NCBI GenBank assembly: GCA_900537185.1
Contig: LS999827.1
Span: 501,001 to 565,000 of the forward strand
DNA: 64,000 nucleotides
Direction: 5' to 3'
DNA from: Cytophagales bacterium Alg240-R148
GTDB lineage: Bacteria; Bacteroidota; Bacteroidia; Cytophagales; Cyclobacteriaceae
Part shown: positions 29,513 through 35,302 of the stretch, in pieces
How the letters are laid out: each line of letters begins with the position of its first letter
How positions within the stretch are numbered: position 1 is the stretch's first letter
The notes under the pieces: model-generated
What the model was told of the DNA's origin: nothing
Database searches by the model: none
Seen by the model: the letters and a program-made list of their open reading frames with translations, nothing else
Made by a program: the position numbers and the translations under genes

Positions 29513-31660
29513 ATGTCTTTATCAACCAAAGTATTAATTGGAGTAGTTGCTGGAATTTTCACTGGACTGTTTTTTGGAGAATACGCCCAGTTCTTATCCA
29601 TACCTGGAGATGTCTTTGTTGGCCTCTTACAAATGACGGTTTTGCCTTATATCATGTTCTCCCTGATTGTGAACATTGGCAGGTTGTCTATGGAAGAAGG
29701 TAAAAAACTAATTAAAAATGGGATTGTTTTCTTATTGCTGCTGCTAGGAGTAGGCTTGGTATACTTGGCCGTACTACCCCTGTCTTTTCCAGAATGGGGG
29801 TCCGGTAGTTTTTACAGCAATGACTTTATTGCCCCGAGCAAGGAGTTGGATATTGTTAAACTGTATGTTCCGGCCAACCTATTCGAATCTCTTGCTGCCA
29901 ATACGGTGCCAGCCGTTGTCTTATTCAGTATTTTCTTAGGCCTTGGCCTTATGAATCTATCCAAAAAGGAAGTGCTGTTAAAACCCTTGGACATACTAAA
30001 CGAAGGGTTGAACCAAGTGAACAAGTTGGTTATAAAACTTACGCCTATTGGCGTGTGGTGCATTGCAGCCGGCGTTACCAGCAGCATGGGTTGGGAAGAA
30101 TTCAGTAGGTTACAAGGGTATATTTTGGTTTATATTTTGGCCATTGTATTGCTTACTTTTGTGGTTTTACCAATGCTCATTTCGCTTTTTACTCCCTATT
30201 CTCCTGCGCGCATATTAAAAATACTAAGGCCTACTTTAATTACCATTTTTGCAACAGGCAAAATTATTGTTGTATACCCACAGCTCATAGAAAACATAAA
30301 AGAAATACTAAAAACCATCAACAAAGACGACGAGGAAAACAAAAAAGCCGTAGATGTACTGATGCCCCTTGCGTACCCCTTCCCCAACTTGGGCACTTTT
30401 ATTATTTTTGTATTTGTTCCATTTGCAGCTTGGTATTCTGGTCAAGAACTGATTGGTGCACAGTACCCTCTATTTCTAAGCTCCACTCTATTAAGTAGTT
30501 TTGTTGCTCCAATCACTGGTTTGCCTTTTACGATGAGCGTAGTAGAGGTGCCAGAAGAAACCTTCCAATTGTTCGTTATTTCTACTGTCATAACCGATAG
30601 GGTTCGGGTGGTGCTAGGTGCCTTTCACTTGGTAGTACTGACGCTGCTCACTACTGCTGCAGCGCACGGCTACTTACAATTTAATTTGTTCAAATTTTTT
30701 AAAAACACGGCCATTGTATTGGTTTTAAGTGCTGCTTCCATTTTCGGAATAAAAAAAGTTTTGGAAATCAGTTTAAGGAATATCCCTACCAACAAAGAAG
30801 TCATTTCTCAATTCGAATTTATCAACGAAGTGCAGCCGTTTGAAATATTGGATCAAGCGGTGCCACATCCTACAAGAAAAAGAAGGGGAGAAAACACCCT
30901 GAGTAGAATCAAAAGAAGTGGAGAGTTGCGCGTAGGGTTTTACGCGGATGAAATCCCTTTTTCATTTTACAACAGCAACGGCGATCTGGTTGGGTTTGGA
31001 ATTGACCTTGCCCATGGTTTGGCCAAAGATTTGAATGTAAAACTGGTGTTGGCTCCAATTGAGCCTGGTACTTTGGTTACAAACATGAAGCAAGATTATT
31101 ATGACATTGTGATGTCGGATATTTTCCTTTCTTCTTTGTTGTCAGAAGAGCTGAGTTTGTCTAAGCCCTATATGGATGTAACTTTGGCCATGTTGGTCAA
31201 AAAAGAACGCAACGAATTCAGAGACTTCAACAGCGTAAGCAAACTCGACACTTTCCATATCGGATTTTTTGAAAGAAAGGAAATCCTAGAAGAATTTTCT
31301 AGTTATTTCCCTCAATCCAAAGGCATTCAACTCAACGAAGTCGCAGACTATTTTGATATGGAAGGTGATTCCATTCAGTTAGATGGTTTGCTCACCAGTG
31401 CTGAAAGAGCCTCTGCTTTAACCCTTCTGCATCCTGAATACCAGGTAGTCAACCCACTCCCACTCCACATGACTGTCCCGTTAATATTTCCAATAAATGG
31501 CCAAGAGGCTTGGAGAGATTATATCAACAGTTGGATTGATATAAGGTCCAAAGATGGACATTTAGACATAATTCGAGACCAATGGATTTTAGGTTATGAA
31601 TACAAAAAAGCAAGCAAATCTTGGAGTATTATGAAAGATGTATTAGGTTGGGTTGATTAA
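29513..31660 (+). CDS. SDF-type symporter domain fused to a family 3 solute-binding domain
   Basis: A 715-residue fusion. Residues about 1-390 resemble the sodium/dicarboxylate symporter fold (PF00375): MTVLPYIMFSLIVNIGRL matches the usual early helix and NTVPAVVLFSIFLGLGL the following one. An extra hydrophobic helix at about 398-416 should turn the C terminus to the periplasm. Residues about 463-700 form a family 3 solute-binding domain (IKRSGELRVGFYADEIPFSFYNSNGDLVGFGIDLAHGLAK). The serine-rich hairpin loop and the NMDGT motif of true symporters are not recognisable (FATGKIIVVYP and PFPNLGTFIIF stand in their places). It may be a substrate-gated carrier or a membrane receptor. The 123 bases upstream contain AGACCGGTCT (29416-29425), a palindrome, but no clear promoter. 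Confidence 0.85.
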   Translation: MSLSTKVLIGVVAGIFTGLFFGEYAQFLSIPGDVFVGLLQMTVLPYIMFSLIVNIGRLSMEEGKKLIKNGIVFLLLLLGVGLVYLAVLPLSFPEWGSGSFYSNDFIAPSKELDIVKLYVPANLFESLAANTVPAVVLFSIFLGLGLMNLSKKEVLLKPLDILNEGLNQVNKLVIKLTPIGVWCIAAGVTSSMGWEEFSRLQGYILVYILAIVLLTFVVLPMLISLFTPYSPARILKILRPTLITIFATGKIIVVYPQLIENIKEILKTINKDDEENKKAVDVLMPLAYPFPNLGTFIIFVFVPFAAWYSGQELIGAQYPLFLSSTLLSSFVAPITGLPFTMSVVEVPEETFQLFVISTVITDRVRVVLGAFHLVVLTLLTTAAAHGYLQFNLFKFFKNTAIVLVLSAASIFGIKKVLEISLRNIPTNKEVISQFEFINEVQPFEILDQAVPHPTRKRRGENTLSRIKRSGELRVGFYADEIPFSFYNSNGDLVGFGIDLAHGLAKDLNVKLVLAPIEPGTLVTNMKQDYYDIVMSDIFLSSLLSEELSLSKPYMDVTLAMLVKKERNEFRDFNSVSKLDTFHIGFFERKEILEEFSSYFPQSKGIQLNEVADYFDMEGDSIQLDGLLTSAERASALTLLHPEYQVVNPLPLHMTVPLIFPINGQEAWRDYINSWIDIRSKDGHLDIIRDQWILGYEYKKASKSWSIMKDVLGWVD

Positions 31661-31807: not shown

Positions 31808-33436
31808 ATGATAGCACGTTTTGCGCTGCTGCTATTGCTATTTTCTAGCCGATTGGCACTGGCAAATAGTGGGGTCAATGGCCAAGCAGTAACTACTATT
31901 CTACAATCGCTACATGCCGATGTTATGCATGCCGTTGTTTGGCAAGGGGATCAAACAAAAGCGCACACAACCGACCAATTAATAGAAGTGAGTCAAAAAG
32001 AGCACAACCTAGCTTATCTGGCTCACGGGTATTATGTTAAAGGGCATTTGTACCAATTAGCGCATATTTACGACTCGTCTGTTTACTATACCAACAAAGC
32101 CAAAACCATCGAAAAGAAGATGGAAAAGATGGCCGATCGCAGGGAGTTCTTATTGTTACAAGGGATCTTTTTTGCAAAACTACAAGGCCAAGACAATTTG
32201 AATACTGCCCTTAATTATTTCAATCTCGTTATTGATCTGAGTACCCAATTAAAGGATTATGACAAAATTGTTACTACAAAAAACAAAAAAGCATGGGTCA
32301 AAATGGTAGAAGGGGATTATTTCAATGCTATGAAAATTTATAAAAGCAACCTTGATTTACTTCCGCATTGTACTTCTAAAAGTACAGCATCGGAAGTATT
32401 TATTAACATTGGCCATATTTACAATGCAATGGGTTTGTACAACAAAGGACTTCGCGTACACCAAGCTACTTTAAAACAGGACCTAGAAAATGACTTGCAA
32501 GACTATGTATATGTGCATTTAATTAATATATCAGAAAGTTATGAGGGTCTAAAATTGTATGACAGTGCGTTATATTATTTATCAGAAAGCAAACAGCATT
32601 TAGAATGCACCACCAACACGTATGAAGCAGCGATAAGCCATTTTAACAAAGGAAAAATATTCTATAAGGATGGCCGATTCAGCGCAGCATTGGAACAATT
32701 AAAGCAATGTAAAAAATCACTGGAGCCAAAATATTACCACGAGTACCTTAAAACATTGGTGCTTATTTCTAAAATCCAACTAGAACTCAACCAGCACCAA
32801 GCAGCACAATCCATTGCCCGTGAAATTGTGCAACTAAACACCAAAAGAAGGTATACTAAAACTGCCCTTTTGGACTTATATGAAGGTTTTCGTTTTGCCC
32901 ATGCTTTATTAGGAGACACCACCAAAGCCTACCACTACCAAAGTCAATTCATCCAATTGTACCAAGCACTTTTTAACAATCAAAACAGCTCGAGAATAAT
33001 TGAGTCTGAACTCAATACCCAACTAAAATACAATCAAATTCTCAGCCAACTTCAGGTCACCCGTACAGAAGCAGATTTAAAAACATCCAAGTTCAATACG
33101 ATTATATCGTTGTTCTTAACCTTTCTATTGGCAATAATAGTCACTTTTTTCATTTACCGTTATGTGGTCAAGAAACAGCACAACCGCCAACTTAAGTTGG
33201 AAATAAAAAACAGAACTTCTGAATTAAAAAGAAAGAATAAAATTTTGGAAGAATACTCTTTTATCAATGCCCATAAATTAAGGGCCCCCGTGGCAAGAAT
33301 TCTTGGCTTATGCAACTTGGTTCGGCTATCCGAGGACAACATCGAAACTTACCATCTAATTGATAAAATGGAATCCGAAACCAGCGATTTAGACAACATT
33401 GTAAAATCGATAACCAGTATGTTGGAAAAACAATAA
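31808..33436 (+). CDS. TPR sensor protein ending in a kinase DHp domain, no ATPase domain (copy 1)
   Basis: A 542-residue membrane protein. A signal peptide (residues 1-19) is followed by a periplasmic region of TPR-like helical repeats (about 65-390; for example AYLAHGYYVKGHLYQLAHIYDSS split over two repeats, and FINIGHIYNAMGLYNKGL). Then come a coiled segment, one membrane helix (about 431-452) and a cytoplasmic coiled linker. The C-terminal 60 residues are a dimerisation/phospho-acceptor domain: FINAHKLRAPVARILGL with H489, second helix ending at residue 540. The stop follows at once and no ATP-binding domain is encoded downstream. A tandem paralogue of equal length follows. Whether it is phosphorylated by another kinase is unknown. 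Confidence 0.85.
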   Translation: MIARFALLLLLFSSRLALANSGVNGQAVTTILQSLHADVMHAVVWQGDQTKAHTTDQLIEVSQKEHNLAYLAHGYYVKGHLYQLAHIYDSSVYYTNKAKTIEKKMEKMADRREFLLLQGIFFAKLQGQDNLNTALNYFNLVIDLSTQLKDYDKIVTTKNKKAWVKMVEGDYFNAMKIYKSNLDLLPHCTSKSTASEVFINIGHIYNAMGLYNKGLRVHQATLKQDLENDLQDYVYVHLINISESYEGLKLYDSALYYLSESKQHLECTTNTYEAAISHFNKGKIFYKDGRFSAALEQLKQCKKSLEPKYYHEYLKTLVLISKIQLELNQHQAAQSIAREIVQLNTKRRYTKTALLDLYEGFRFAHALLGDTTKAYHYQSQFIQLYQALFNNQNSSRIIESELNTQLKYNQILSQLQVTRTEADLKTSKFNTIISLFLTFLLAIIVTFFIYRYVVKKQHNRQLKLEIKNRTSELKRKNKILEEYSFINAHKLRAPVARILGLCNLVRLSEDNIETYHLIDKMESETSDLDNIVKSITSMLEKQ

Positions 33437-33456
33437 CTTGCTTATTTGAAGTTATT
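33432..33456 (+). terminator. Possible weak terminator after TPR sensor copy 1
   Basis: AATAACTT (33432-33439) pairs with AAGTTATT (33449-33456) and includes the stop codon. AT-rich and followed by only ATCTCTG, so termination would be weak. Confidence 0.35.
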
Positions 33457-33492
33457 ATCTCTGCCTACTCCCATTGCTCTGTTGGTTGATGT

Positions 33493-33500
33493 TACATTTG
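33493..33500 (+). promoter_or_regulatory. Putative -7 box for TPR sensor copy 2
   Basis: TACATTTG, a perfect -7 match, with TTG at 33474-33476 (16-base spacer, short). It implies a leader of about 165 bases before the ATG at 33674. The rest of this 237-base gap holds no recognisable structure. Confidence 0.4.
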
Positions 33501-33673
33501 TGAACAACAATCAAGAAGCATCTTGCTTCCCAATATAATTATTACAGTTAAAAATTTTATTTCCCCAAGTAAATTGAATAATTCGTAGCGATCATGACAT
33601 TGTATTCGCCAATATTTTCAGATATTGTTATTGTAAAAAAACGGAACTCAACTACACCAATAACACGGAGCAT

Positions 33674-35302
33674 ATGCGCGCATACAGCACACTAATGAGA
33701 TCTTTTGTTTGTTTTGTTGTAATTCTTTGCAGCCTCTCCACCCATGCGCTTCCACAGCAACAAGGCCCTCTTTACCATTTAGCGGTAGACCATTTGCTTT
33801 GGGAAAGGTACCCACAGGCACAAACAGCCATCGGCCAAATAATCCCCAACCCAATGGGCTCTGTTACTATCGATACAGTTACACAGGTGCACGGTTTGTT
33901 TTTGAAAGGGTTTTTATTCCAGCAAACTGGACAACAAGATTCTGCCAAGTTTTATTATCGCGCAAGCCAACTACTGCAAAGTGCTATTGTTGCACCAGCC
34001 CAACTGATTGAATTTTACCATACGCGGGGTCTATTTTATTACAAACTCAAACTCCCAATTGAAGGCGATTCTGCCTTGGCCAATTATAACAAGGGCATCG
34101 CAATGAGCCAGGCAATAGACGACATAGACAATGAAATAATTTTCAACAACCGCAAATCAGTCATAAAAATGCAGCAGGGCGCCTACTACGACGCAATGAA
34201 GCTATTAAAGAATTGTTTGCCCTTATTAAAACAGACAAAAAACATAGAAGTAACCACAACGGTTCTGACGAATATTGGTCATATTTACAATACGCTCGCC
34301 CTTTATAAAAAAGCATTAAACATACATTATAAAACTCTTAAATTTGACCTAAGTACCAATATACCCTCGCATATCATTACGGACTATCTCAACATTAGCG
34401 ACAGCCACGTTGGACTCGGAAATTATGACAGCGCAATGTATTACATTCAATTGGCCTATTCTTATTCAACCAAGTTGGAGCAAACCCATCTGAGAGGGAG
34501 GGTGTTGTTTTTTAAAGGCAAGTTGCACTACGACATAGACCAACTTGACTCTGCTATTTATAATTTAAAAAACAGCAAAAAGTACTACGATGCGTCTAAC
34601 TCCTTCGAGAACTTCAGAACTACTCTATTGCTTTCTCGGTGTTATTACCAACAACAGAATATTAAAAAAGCCAAACAATATGCTCAAGAATCTATTGGAT
34701 TGAACCTCAATAGGAAATATGCAAAAAAATTTGAAATGCAGATGTACAATGGGTACAGTTTTGCCCATGCCTTACTGGGAGATACGTTGCAGGCTTTCCA
34801 AGCCCAATTCAAATACAACCAACTTTATGAAACCTTGTTCAATGCCGAAAATAAATCCAAAGTAATTGAATCTGAGTTAAATGCCGAACTGAAGTTGCTG
34901 CAAGTACAAAAGGAATTGGAGGCCTCCAAGGCCGAAACTATACTGAAAAATGCGCGGATTGAATCGATTTTCATTTGGATCTTGTTGGGAATTTTGTGCC
35001 TTGTTTTGTTGTTCTTTTTGTACCGGTACCGCCTTAAAAAAGGACACAACCAACACCTCCAACAAGAAATTCTTAAACGAACCAAAGAATTGCAGGATAA
35101 AAATACCATTCTAGAAGAATATGCTTTTATCAATGCGCACAAATTAAGGGCGCCAGTGGCGAGAATATTGGGACTGTGCAGTTTGGCCGACCTAACCAAG
35201 GACCCTAAAGAAACTGGAGATTTAATGGATAAAATTCAGGATGAAACCTCTGACTTGGACGGCATAGTGAAATCCATTACCACTACTTTGGAAAAGAATT
35301 GA
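33674..35302 (+). CDS. TPR sensor protein ending in a kinase DHp domain, no ATPase domain (copy 2)
   Basis: A 542-residue paralogue of the preceding gene with identical architecture: signal peptide (about residues 5-25), periplasmic TPR-like repeats (LTNIGHIYNTLALYKKALNIH aligns with copy 1), one membrane helix (IFIWILLGILCLVLLFFLY), coiled linker, and a DHp segment FINAHKLRAPVARILGL with histidine at 489, ending DLDGIVKSITTTLEKN. The C-terminal segment is far better conserved between the copies than the TPR region, which suggests different ligands and a common output. It lacks an ATP-binding domain. Its 3' end overlaps the convergent TetR gene by 20 bases. Confidence 0.85.
   Translation: MRAYSTLMRSFVCFVVILCSLSTHALPQQQGPLYHLAVDHLLWERYPQAQTAIGQIIPNPMGSVTIDTVTQVHGLFLKGFLFQQTGQQDSAKFYYRASQLLQSAIVAPAQLIEFYHTRGLFYYKLKLPIEGDSALANYNKGIAMSQAIDDIDNEIIFNNRKSVIKMQQGAYYDAMKLLKNCLPLLKQTKNIEVTTTVLTNIGHIYNTLALYKKALNIHYKTLKFDLSTNIPSHIITDYLNISDSHVGLGNYDSAMYYIQLAYSYSTKLEQTHLRGRVLFFKGKLHYDIDQLDSAIYNLKNSKKYYDASNSFENFRTTLLLSRCYYQQQNIKKAKQYAQESIGLNLNRKYAKKFEMQMYNGYSFAHALLGDTLQAFQAQFKYNQLYETLFNAENKSKVIESELNAELKLLQVQKELEASKAETILKNARIESIFIWILLGILCLVLLFFLYRYRLKKGHNQHLQQEILKRTKELQDKNTILEEYAFINAHKLRAPVARILGLCSLADLTKDPKETGDLMDKIQDETSDLDGIVKSITTTLEKN

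Follow-up and report, generated by a model that had tools for sequence, protein, structure and literature searches.

Tandem TPR membrane proteins of a Cytophagales bacterium that end in a histidine kinase DHp domain without an ATPase domain

Background

What can a membrane sensor do that carries the histidine of a sensor kinase and no ATPase domain to phosphorylate it? The question is raised by two neighbouring genes in a 64,000-nucleotide stretch of the genome of Cytophagales bacterium Alg240-R148 (Bacteroidota; Cytophagales; Cyclobacteriaceae; GenBank assembly GCA_900537185.1, contig LS999827.1, positions 501,001 to 565,000 of the forward strand), to which we refer as the window. Gene A (31808..33436, + strand) and gene B (33674..35302, + strand) each encode a 542-residue protein with tetratricopeptide repeats (TPR) and, at the extreme C-terminus, a segment resembling the dimerisation and histidine phosphotransfer (DHp) domain of histidine kinases. 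A first-pass annotation, made from the sequence alone, had noticed that both copies stop directly after this segment and had offered three functions, namely phosphorelay acceptor, decoy, or dimerisation adaptor that recruits a separate kinase. Here we place the pair in a large family of Bacteroidota proteins ending at the same domain boundary, and find it on balance probable that the window proteins are sensor-gated histidine phosphotransfer proteins, whose output would be to pass on phosphate rather than to act as a kinase.

Results

Layout of the gene pair

Open reading frames (ORFs), Pfam matches and hydropathy agree with the architecture proposed at first pass: tandem paralogues, each with a signal peptide, TPRs, one membrane helix and a DHp end with a histidine at position 489. 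Beyond its ORF, gene A is described by Pfam TPR matches, a sub-threshold HisKA match and its identity to B, and gene B by Pfam and an AlphaFold2 model. On the + strand throughout, each begins with a putative signal peptide, seen as a hydrophobic N-terminus (residues 1-20 of A, 31808..31867, MIARFALLLLLFSSRLALA; residues 1-26 of B, 33674..33751). A TPR region follows, probably periplasmic, which in A spans residues 68-367 approximately (32009..32908; Pfam TPR_12 and gapless alignment to B) and in B forms a predicted superhelix at residues 68-367 (33875..34774; Pfam TPR_12 and TPR_8, AlphaFold2). The membrane helix lies at about residues 431-451 in both (33098..33160 in A and 34964..35026 in B, with hydropathy maxima of 2.74 and 3.03, respectively, and basic residues after it). 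The DHp hairpin occupies residues 471-541, at 33218..33430 in A (H489 codon 33272-33274; family profile and Protein Data Bank [PDB] profile match) and at 35084..35296 in B (H489 codon 35138-35140; the same two lines of evidence plus the AlphaFold2 hairpin). In both proteins H489 stands within FINAHKLRAPVARILGLC, 53 residues ahead of the C-terminus. Between residues 73 and 541 the two can be aligned without a gap (41% identity), with the last 84 residues 68% identical and the remainder about 35%, indicating that the end segment is, as had been stated, better conserved than the sensor part.

The end segment and the absence of an ATPase domain

The Pfam HisKA model (PF00512) scores A and B at 18.5 and 21.5 bits, below its gathering cut-off of 26.9, and one paralogue in the same genome passes that cut-off with 29 bits. 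A profile of the end segment matches DHp domains of histidine kinases with structures in the PDB (7n0e, 7z8n and 3a0r), the best match being the 60-residue histidine kinase chain of 7n0e, which we take to be the DHp domain of GacS bound to RetS. A single AlphaFold2 monomer model of B, built on 33 homologues (mean predicted local distance difference test score 83.7), has the TPR superhelix at residues 68-367, a long helix at 371-507, a tight turn and a further helix at 511-541; in this model B carries a complete DHp hairpin, and the end of the protein is the end of the second DHp helix. Because the profile finds solved DHp domains, and given the predicted fold, we rule out that the segment is an unrelated coiled coil.

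Pfam gave no HATPase_c match in A or B, reading downstream gave no ATPase frame after either gene, and the HPt model had no match to the two proteins at E-values up to 1. The intergenic stretch (33437..33673, 237 bases) is, in a three-frame reading, too short and too broken to hold an ATPase domain, and a convergent TetR-type gene overlaps the final codons of B; since the homologues also end alike, a missed frameshift or hidden ATPase domain can be ruled out. The observation that both proteins stop right after the second DHp helix is thus upheld, and neither of the two objections raised with it (missed frameshift and unrelated coiled coil) applies.

A family with a common end point

The search that had been proposed, for other Bacteroidota proteins ending in a DHp domain, returned 155 of them; the source genome itself has at least about 17. 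Scanning 84,980 species genomes for the motif N[AS]H[KL][LV]R[GAS]P[LV]A retained 80 loci, all of which (80/80) are DHp-only and stop 53-82 residues past the histidine, and whose names are nearly all Cytophagales or unclassified Bacteroidota. The length of the tail past the histidine is bimodal across 204 proteins: 155 have at most 100 residues, 49 have at least 180, and none lies between. One of the 49 (L198; we number loci with an L) is not a kinase but a fusion of a DHp to a receiver (REC) domain (PAS-DHp-REC), leaving 48 complete kinases. No ATPase domain was found among the 155 DHp-only homologues. With 80 scan loci and 155 gathered homologues stopping at the same domain boundary, chance truncation is ruled out, and the earlier argument to that effect is strongly supported.

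Within the source genome (5.3 Mb in 7 contigs) we searched with the end segment, read the frames and counted residues from histidine to stop; per-genome counts obtained in this way are lower bounds. Among 55 matches, at least about 17 proteins, including the window pair, stop 52-83 residues past the histidine, and nearly all others continue, like complete kinases, for some 200 residues or more. The sensors of the DHp-only set are TPR, 7TMR-DISM, GAF, PAS or multi-membrane. We saw no receiver or kinase operons around the DHp-only genes of this genome, except for one divergent kinase. The genome also holds 72 receiver matches and 12 single-domain receivers in approximately 4,600 genes (a number estimated from genome size), and a soluble TPR kinase homologue, 41% identical, is encoded elsewhere (L053, C2:117.3-119.1 kb).

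A tree of the DHp segment, from a short alignment of 77 columns, needs only 4 changes between DHp-only and complete over 151 rows (about 42 with shuffled labels) and 4 over 197 rows (about 48 with shuffled labels), which argues that loss of the ATPase domain was early and the resulting state stable; as far as such a tree can tell, the DHp-only state is clearly old. The nearest complete relatives are Bacteroidota kinases with HNLRAPVARILGL, which differ from the window proteins by having HATPase_c and an N directly after the histidine. L199 (338-1816) is a DHp-only protein that has the motif of complete kinases, HNLRAPVARLLG, and is placed within a complete-kinase clade; it probably arose by a separate and recent truncation.

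The family is strongest in the source genome's own GTDB family. At a strict threshold the window type matches in 6 of the 296 genomes of a phylum sample, and a profile of the PAS/QSH branch matches in 51 of the 296, the weaker of these matches including complete kinases. A search of 97 other genomes at E-values up to 1e-30 found no orthologue of the whole window protein; the TPR sensor is thus narrowly spread and the DHp end widespread.

Residues at and around the histidine

Residue counts were restricted to loci found by profile (72 DHp-only proteins and 39 complete kinases), because the scan motif itself fixes the histidine. Counting positions from that histidine, the DHp-only proteins have the histidine in 71/72, Pro at H+5 and R or K at H+3 in all 72, and G at H+11 in 69/72. 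Their H+1 residue varies (K 24, E 12, L 10, H 8, V 6, and others), compared with D 26, N 11 and R 2 in the 39 complete kinases. At H-2 the DHp-only proteins have N (58) or Q (8), where complete kinases mostly have T, A, V or S. H+4 is A, G or S in 67 of the 72, and the complete kinases of the sample mostly have A, S or G there too.

In HisKA proteins that have been tested, an acidic residue at H+1 is required for autokinase activity and T or N at H+4 for phosphatase activity (PMC3510030). By that measure the family has mostly given up the autokinase residue; it is also without the phosphatase residue, although this holds for most complete kinases of the sample as well. Since the histidine is near-invariant while the acid at H+1 is mostly lost, the histidine would seem to be kept for something besides self-phosphorylation.

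Receivers and kinases beside the relatives

Searching with the end of L198 brought up nine more DHp-REC or REC-DHp-REC proteins in other genomes. In these ten fusions the histidine is present in 10/10, an ATPase domain in 0/10 and the complete set of receiver residues in 9/10. Proteins of the REC-DHp and REC-PAS-DHp type were found at L131, L174, L200 and L211, and at L258 a separate receiver gene follows the DHp-only gene in the same frame, with one stop codon between them. As a separate observation, the 337-residue frame at L246 is a REC-DHp-REC protein without an ATPase domain that resembles a relay of three steps within a single chain.

We picked 22 PAS-type loci solely on their DHp score. 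In 13 of them a same-strand receiver gene is the immediate neighbour, where fewer than 1 would be expected from 72 receiver matches in approximately 4,600 genes (chance below 1e-10 if the loci were independent, a figure that shared ancestry inflates). Nine loci (L329, L330, L331, L333-L337 and L339; Pfam for L329) follow a recurring order: one or more complete kinases with HATPase and an H-box of the ASHDLQEPLRM type, in most cases an Rcp1-like receiver, a REC-PAS-DHp-only protein and usually a CheY-like receiver, not every gene being present in every locus. In the operon at L131 (2082-5899) a GAF kinase gene overlaps by 4 bases with a REC-DHp-only gene (NAHKLRSPVATLLGL), which is followed by a REC-SpoIIE-type phosphatase. 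The window pair falls in the same clade as L131 (Shimodaira-Hasegawa-like approximate likelihood ratio test support 76-86), and L131 in this way bridges the window type to the receiver-linked relatives. The relay at L131 itself seems to end in a partner-switching phosphatase.

Window-type TPR DHp-only genes have neighbours of another kind in three genomes, where a soluble TPR kinase abuts them and is a candidate partner (L067, 4401-6158; L077, 3647-5506; L142, 868-2622); two of these three loci adjoin methionine biosynthesis genes. In all, a complete kinase lies within two ORFs in 12 of 92 window-type loci.

Immediately upstream of gene A lies an unusual transporter-plus-binding-protein fusion, a 715-residue protein (29513-31660, + strand) that combines a sodium:dicarboxylate symporter (SDF, residues 3-377) with an extracellular solute-binding domain of family 3 (SBP_bac_3, residues 472-692).

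Discussion

Phosphotransfer and its alternatives

Of the three functions first offered, that of phosphorelay acceptor is the one we favour, because the relatives include relay-like operons and DHp-REC fusions and because a near-invariant histidine stands beside a variable autokinase residue. Operons that combine a kinase, a receiver, a DHp-only histidine and a further receiver, together with the fusions, are what a His-Asp-His-Asp relay looks like, and the residue pattern is that expected of a phosphotransfer histidine fed by a receiver and not by an ATPase domain of its own. In such a scheme two DHp hairpins would pair into a four-helix bundle, as a homodimer or an A-B heterodimer; a receiver would be phosphorylated by a complete kinase from elsewhere in the cell; and the DHp-only histidine would take the phosphate of that receiver and either return it or hand it to a second receiver. 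This transfer would be opened or closed by a signal that arrives at the TPRs, outside the membrane, and is conveyed through the membrane helix and the coiled coil. The 12 single-domain receivers of the genome are the candidate receiver partners. We infer alike the identity of the receiver, the direction of transfer and the steps from signal through TPR to DHp.

Several observations weigh against phosphotransfer. The window type has receivers at only 2 of 356 neighbouring ORFs by profile and at none by a strict pattern; the window pair and nearly all genes of the closest type are orphans, and receiver linkage appears concentrated in the PAS/QSH branch. For the orphan window pair itself, then, we infer the phosphotransfer role. 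Four DHp-only copies have lost the histidine (L077, 1962-3644; L142, 3-794; L133, 2448-3359; and the second match of L170, - strand; with F, N, S and R, respectively, in its place), and each shares its locus with a histidine-bearing DHp-only gene. Some members may accordingly be structural partners only, and the side-by-side occurrence suggests heterodimers with one active subunit.

The orphan state of the pair and the kinases abutting some window-type genes are why we place second, as a live if rather unlikely option, the recruitment of a separate kinase, the adaptor role of the first-pass annotation. The DHp-only chain would be a regulatory subunit that adjusts a complete kinase by pairing with it or docking on it, much as RocA acts on CovS; in a variant, the ATPase domain of the partner might phosphorylate the DHp-only histidine in trans. 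The soluble TPR kinases at L067, L077 and L142, the 41% identical kinase of the source genome and the 12 of 92 loci with a nearby complete kinase are consistent with such a partner, although the frequency of kinase neighbours is only about twice that expected from 81 ATPase domains in the approximately 4,600 genes, and several of these loci are homologous. Heteromers are likewise suggested by the histidine-less copies beside histidine-bearing ones, and in 7n0e a DHp-sized kinase chain is accompanied by another, longer one. The histidine of RocA is dispensable for its action on CovS (PMC7028121), a precedent that cuts both ways, as a mere partner needs no near-invariant histidine. The N or Q at H-2 in 66/72 DHp-only proteins, where complete kinases have hydrophobic or small residues, may moreover hint that DHp-only proteins pair with one another. 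A role as receiver-binding phosphatase or phosphate sink, turning receivers off on signal, seems to us improbable. HisKA-type DHp domains do carry phosphatase activity, which has been proposed for archaeal HisKA proteins without HATPase (PMC5847659), and the receiver linkage of the relatives would fit equally well; the activity needs no phosphohistidine, however, yet the histidine is kept, and H+4 is rarely the required T or N (PMC3510030), a weak point given the complete kinases of the sample. That these are decaying kinases without function is very hard to credit: L199 does resemble a recent truncation, but decay of the family as a whole is refuted by 155 intact open frames that share an end point, by the conserved H-box and by a tree with just 4 changes. 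The decoy function acquired no specific support. Sensor-gated phosphotransfer thus stays our preferred reading.

Comparison with known systems

The window proteins share with the dimeric phosphotransferases a DHp-type hairpin with its histidine and no functional ATPase domain, but they end at the DHp domain and lack the degenerate C-terminal ATPase-like domain. Linkage to receivers, a further mark of that group, is seen in relatives and not at the window pair. Such an ATPase-like C-terminal domain is kept by Spo0B. Like Spo0B and ChpT they would form a four-helix bundle of two hairpins with a phosphotransfer histidine and no autokinase activity; Spo0B and ChpT differ in being soluble and sensorless, and ChpT in keeping a C-terminal ATPase-like domain that is absent here (PMC3433190). 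PhyT of Sphingomonas (formerly PhyP) would be the closest working analogue, being likewise a membrane protein with a periplasmic sensor, a DHp histidine and lost kinase function, whose histidine takes phosphate from a single-domain receiver and delivers it to an output receiver; it differs in being of the HWE/HisKA_2 type with an HRxxN motif, in retaining a degenerate ATPase domain and in being a single gene beside its target (PMC5898713). By analogy, the window proteins probably work like Spo0B, ChpT and PhyT and are not members of their groups, because all three keep a C-terminal domain that is absent here.

Among kinase-like proteins that act on another kinase, RetS (with GacS) keeps a C-terminal catalytic-type domain. 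RocA resembles the window proteins in acting on another kinase (CovS) without kinase output of its own, and differs in that its C-terminal catalytic-type domain is kept and its histidine is dispensable (PMC7028121). The window proteins also answer to the description 'HisKA, no HATPase', having a sensor, a C-terminal HisKA-like domain with its histidine and no HATPase. Archaeal proteins of this description, for which phosphoacceptor, transfer or phosphatase roles have been proposed, include REC-containing versions such as the REC-PAS-HisKA protein AF_1472 and occur several per genome; they differ in number (up to 7 per genome, against at least about 17 here) and in that no relay operons have been reported (PMC5847659, PMC1183210). 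In the P2CS database, HisKA proteins that have neither HATPase nor receiver are classed as phosphotransfer proteins (PMC2716373).

Conclusion

HisKA proteins without HATPase are already known from archaea; in the searchable open-access literature we came across no account of the Bacteroidota family or of its operons, and annotation can easily label such proteins histidine kinases or leave them without a name. As a natural case of a DHp domain freed from its ATPase domain, the family opens the roles of the histidine, H+1 and H-2 each to study. If sensor-gated phosphotransfer is correct, present counts for Bacteroidota are too low for sensors and too high for kinases, and many orphan receivers have an unrecognised regulator. 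More tentatively, and with rather less confidence than we place in phosphotransfer by the window proteins, we suggest that Bacteroidota, the Cytophagales above all, may possess a many-input phosphorelay layer, in which sensors without an ATPase domain, some in the membrane and some soluble and up to a dozen or more in each genome, act as regulated phosphotransfer gates on a few single-domain receivers, and sensing is separated from the use of ATP. Such a layer would be a widespread sensory class that searchable papers have not described for these bacteria.

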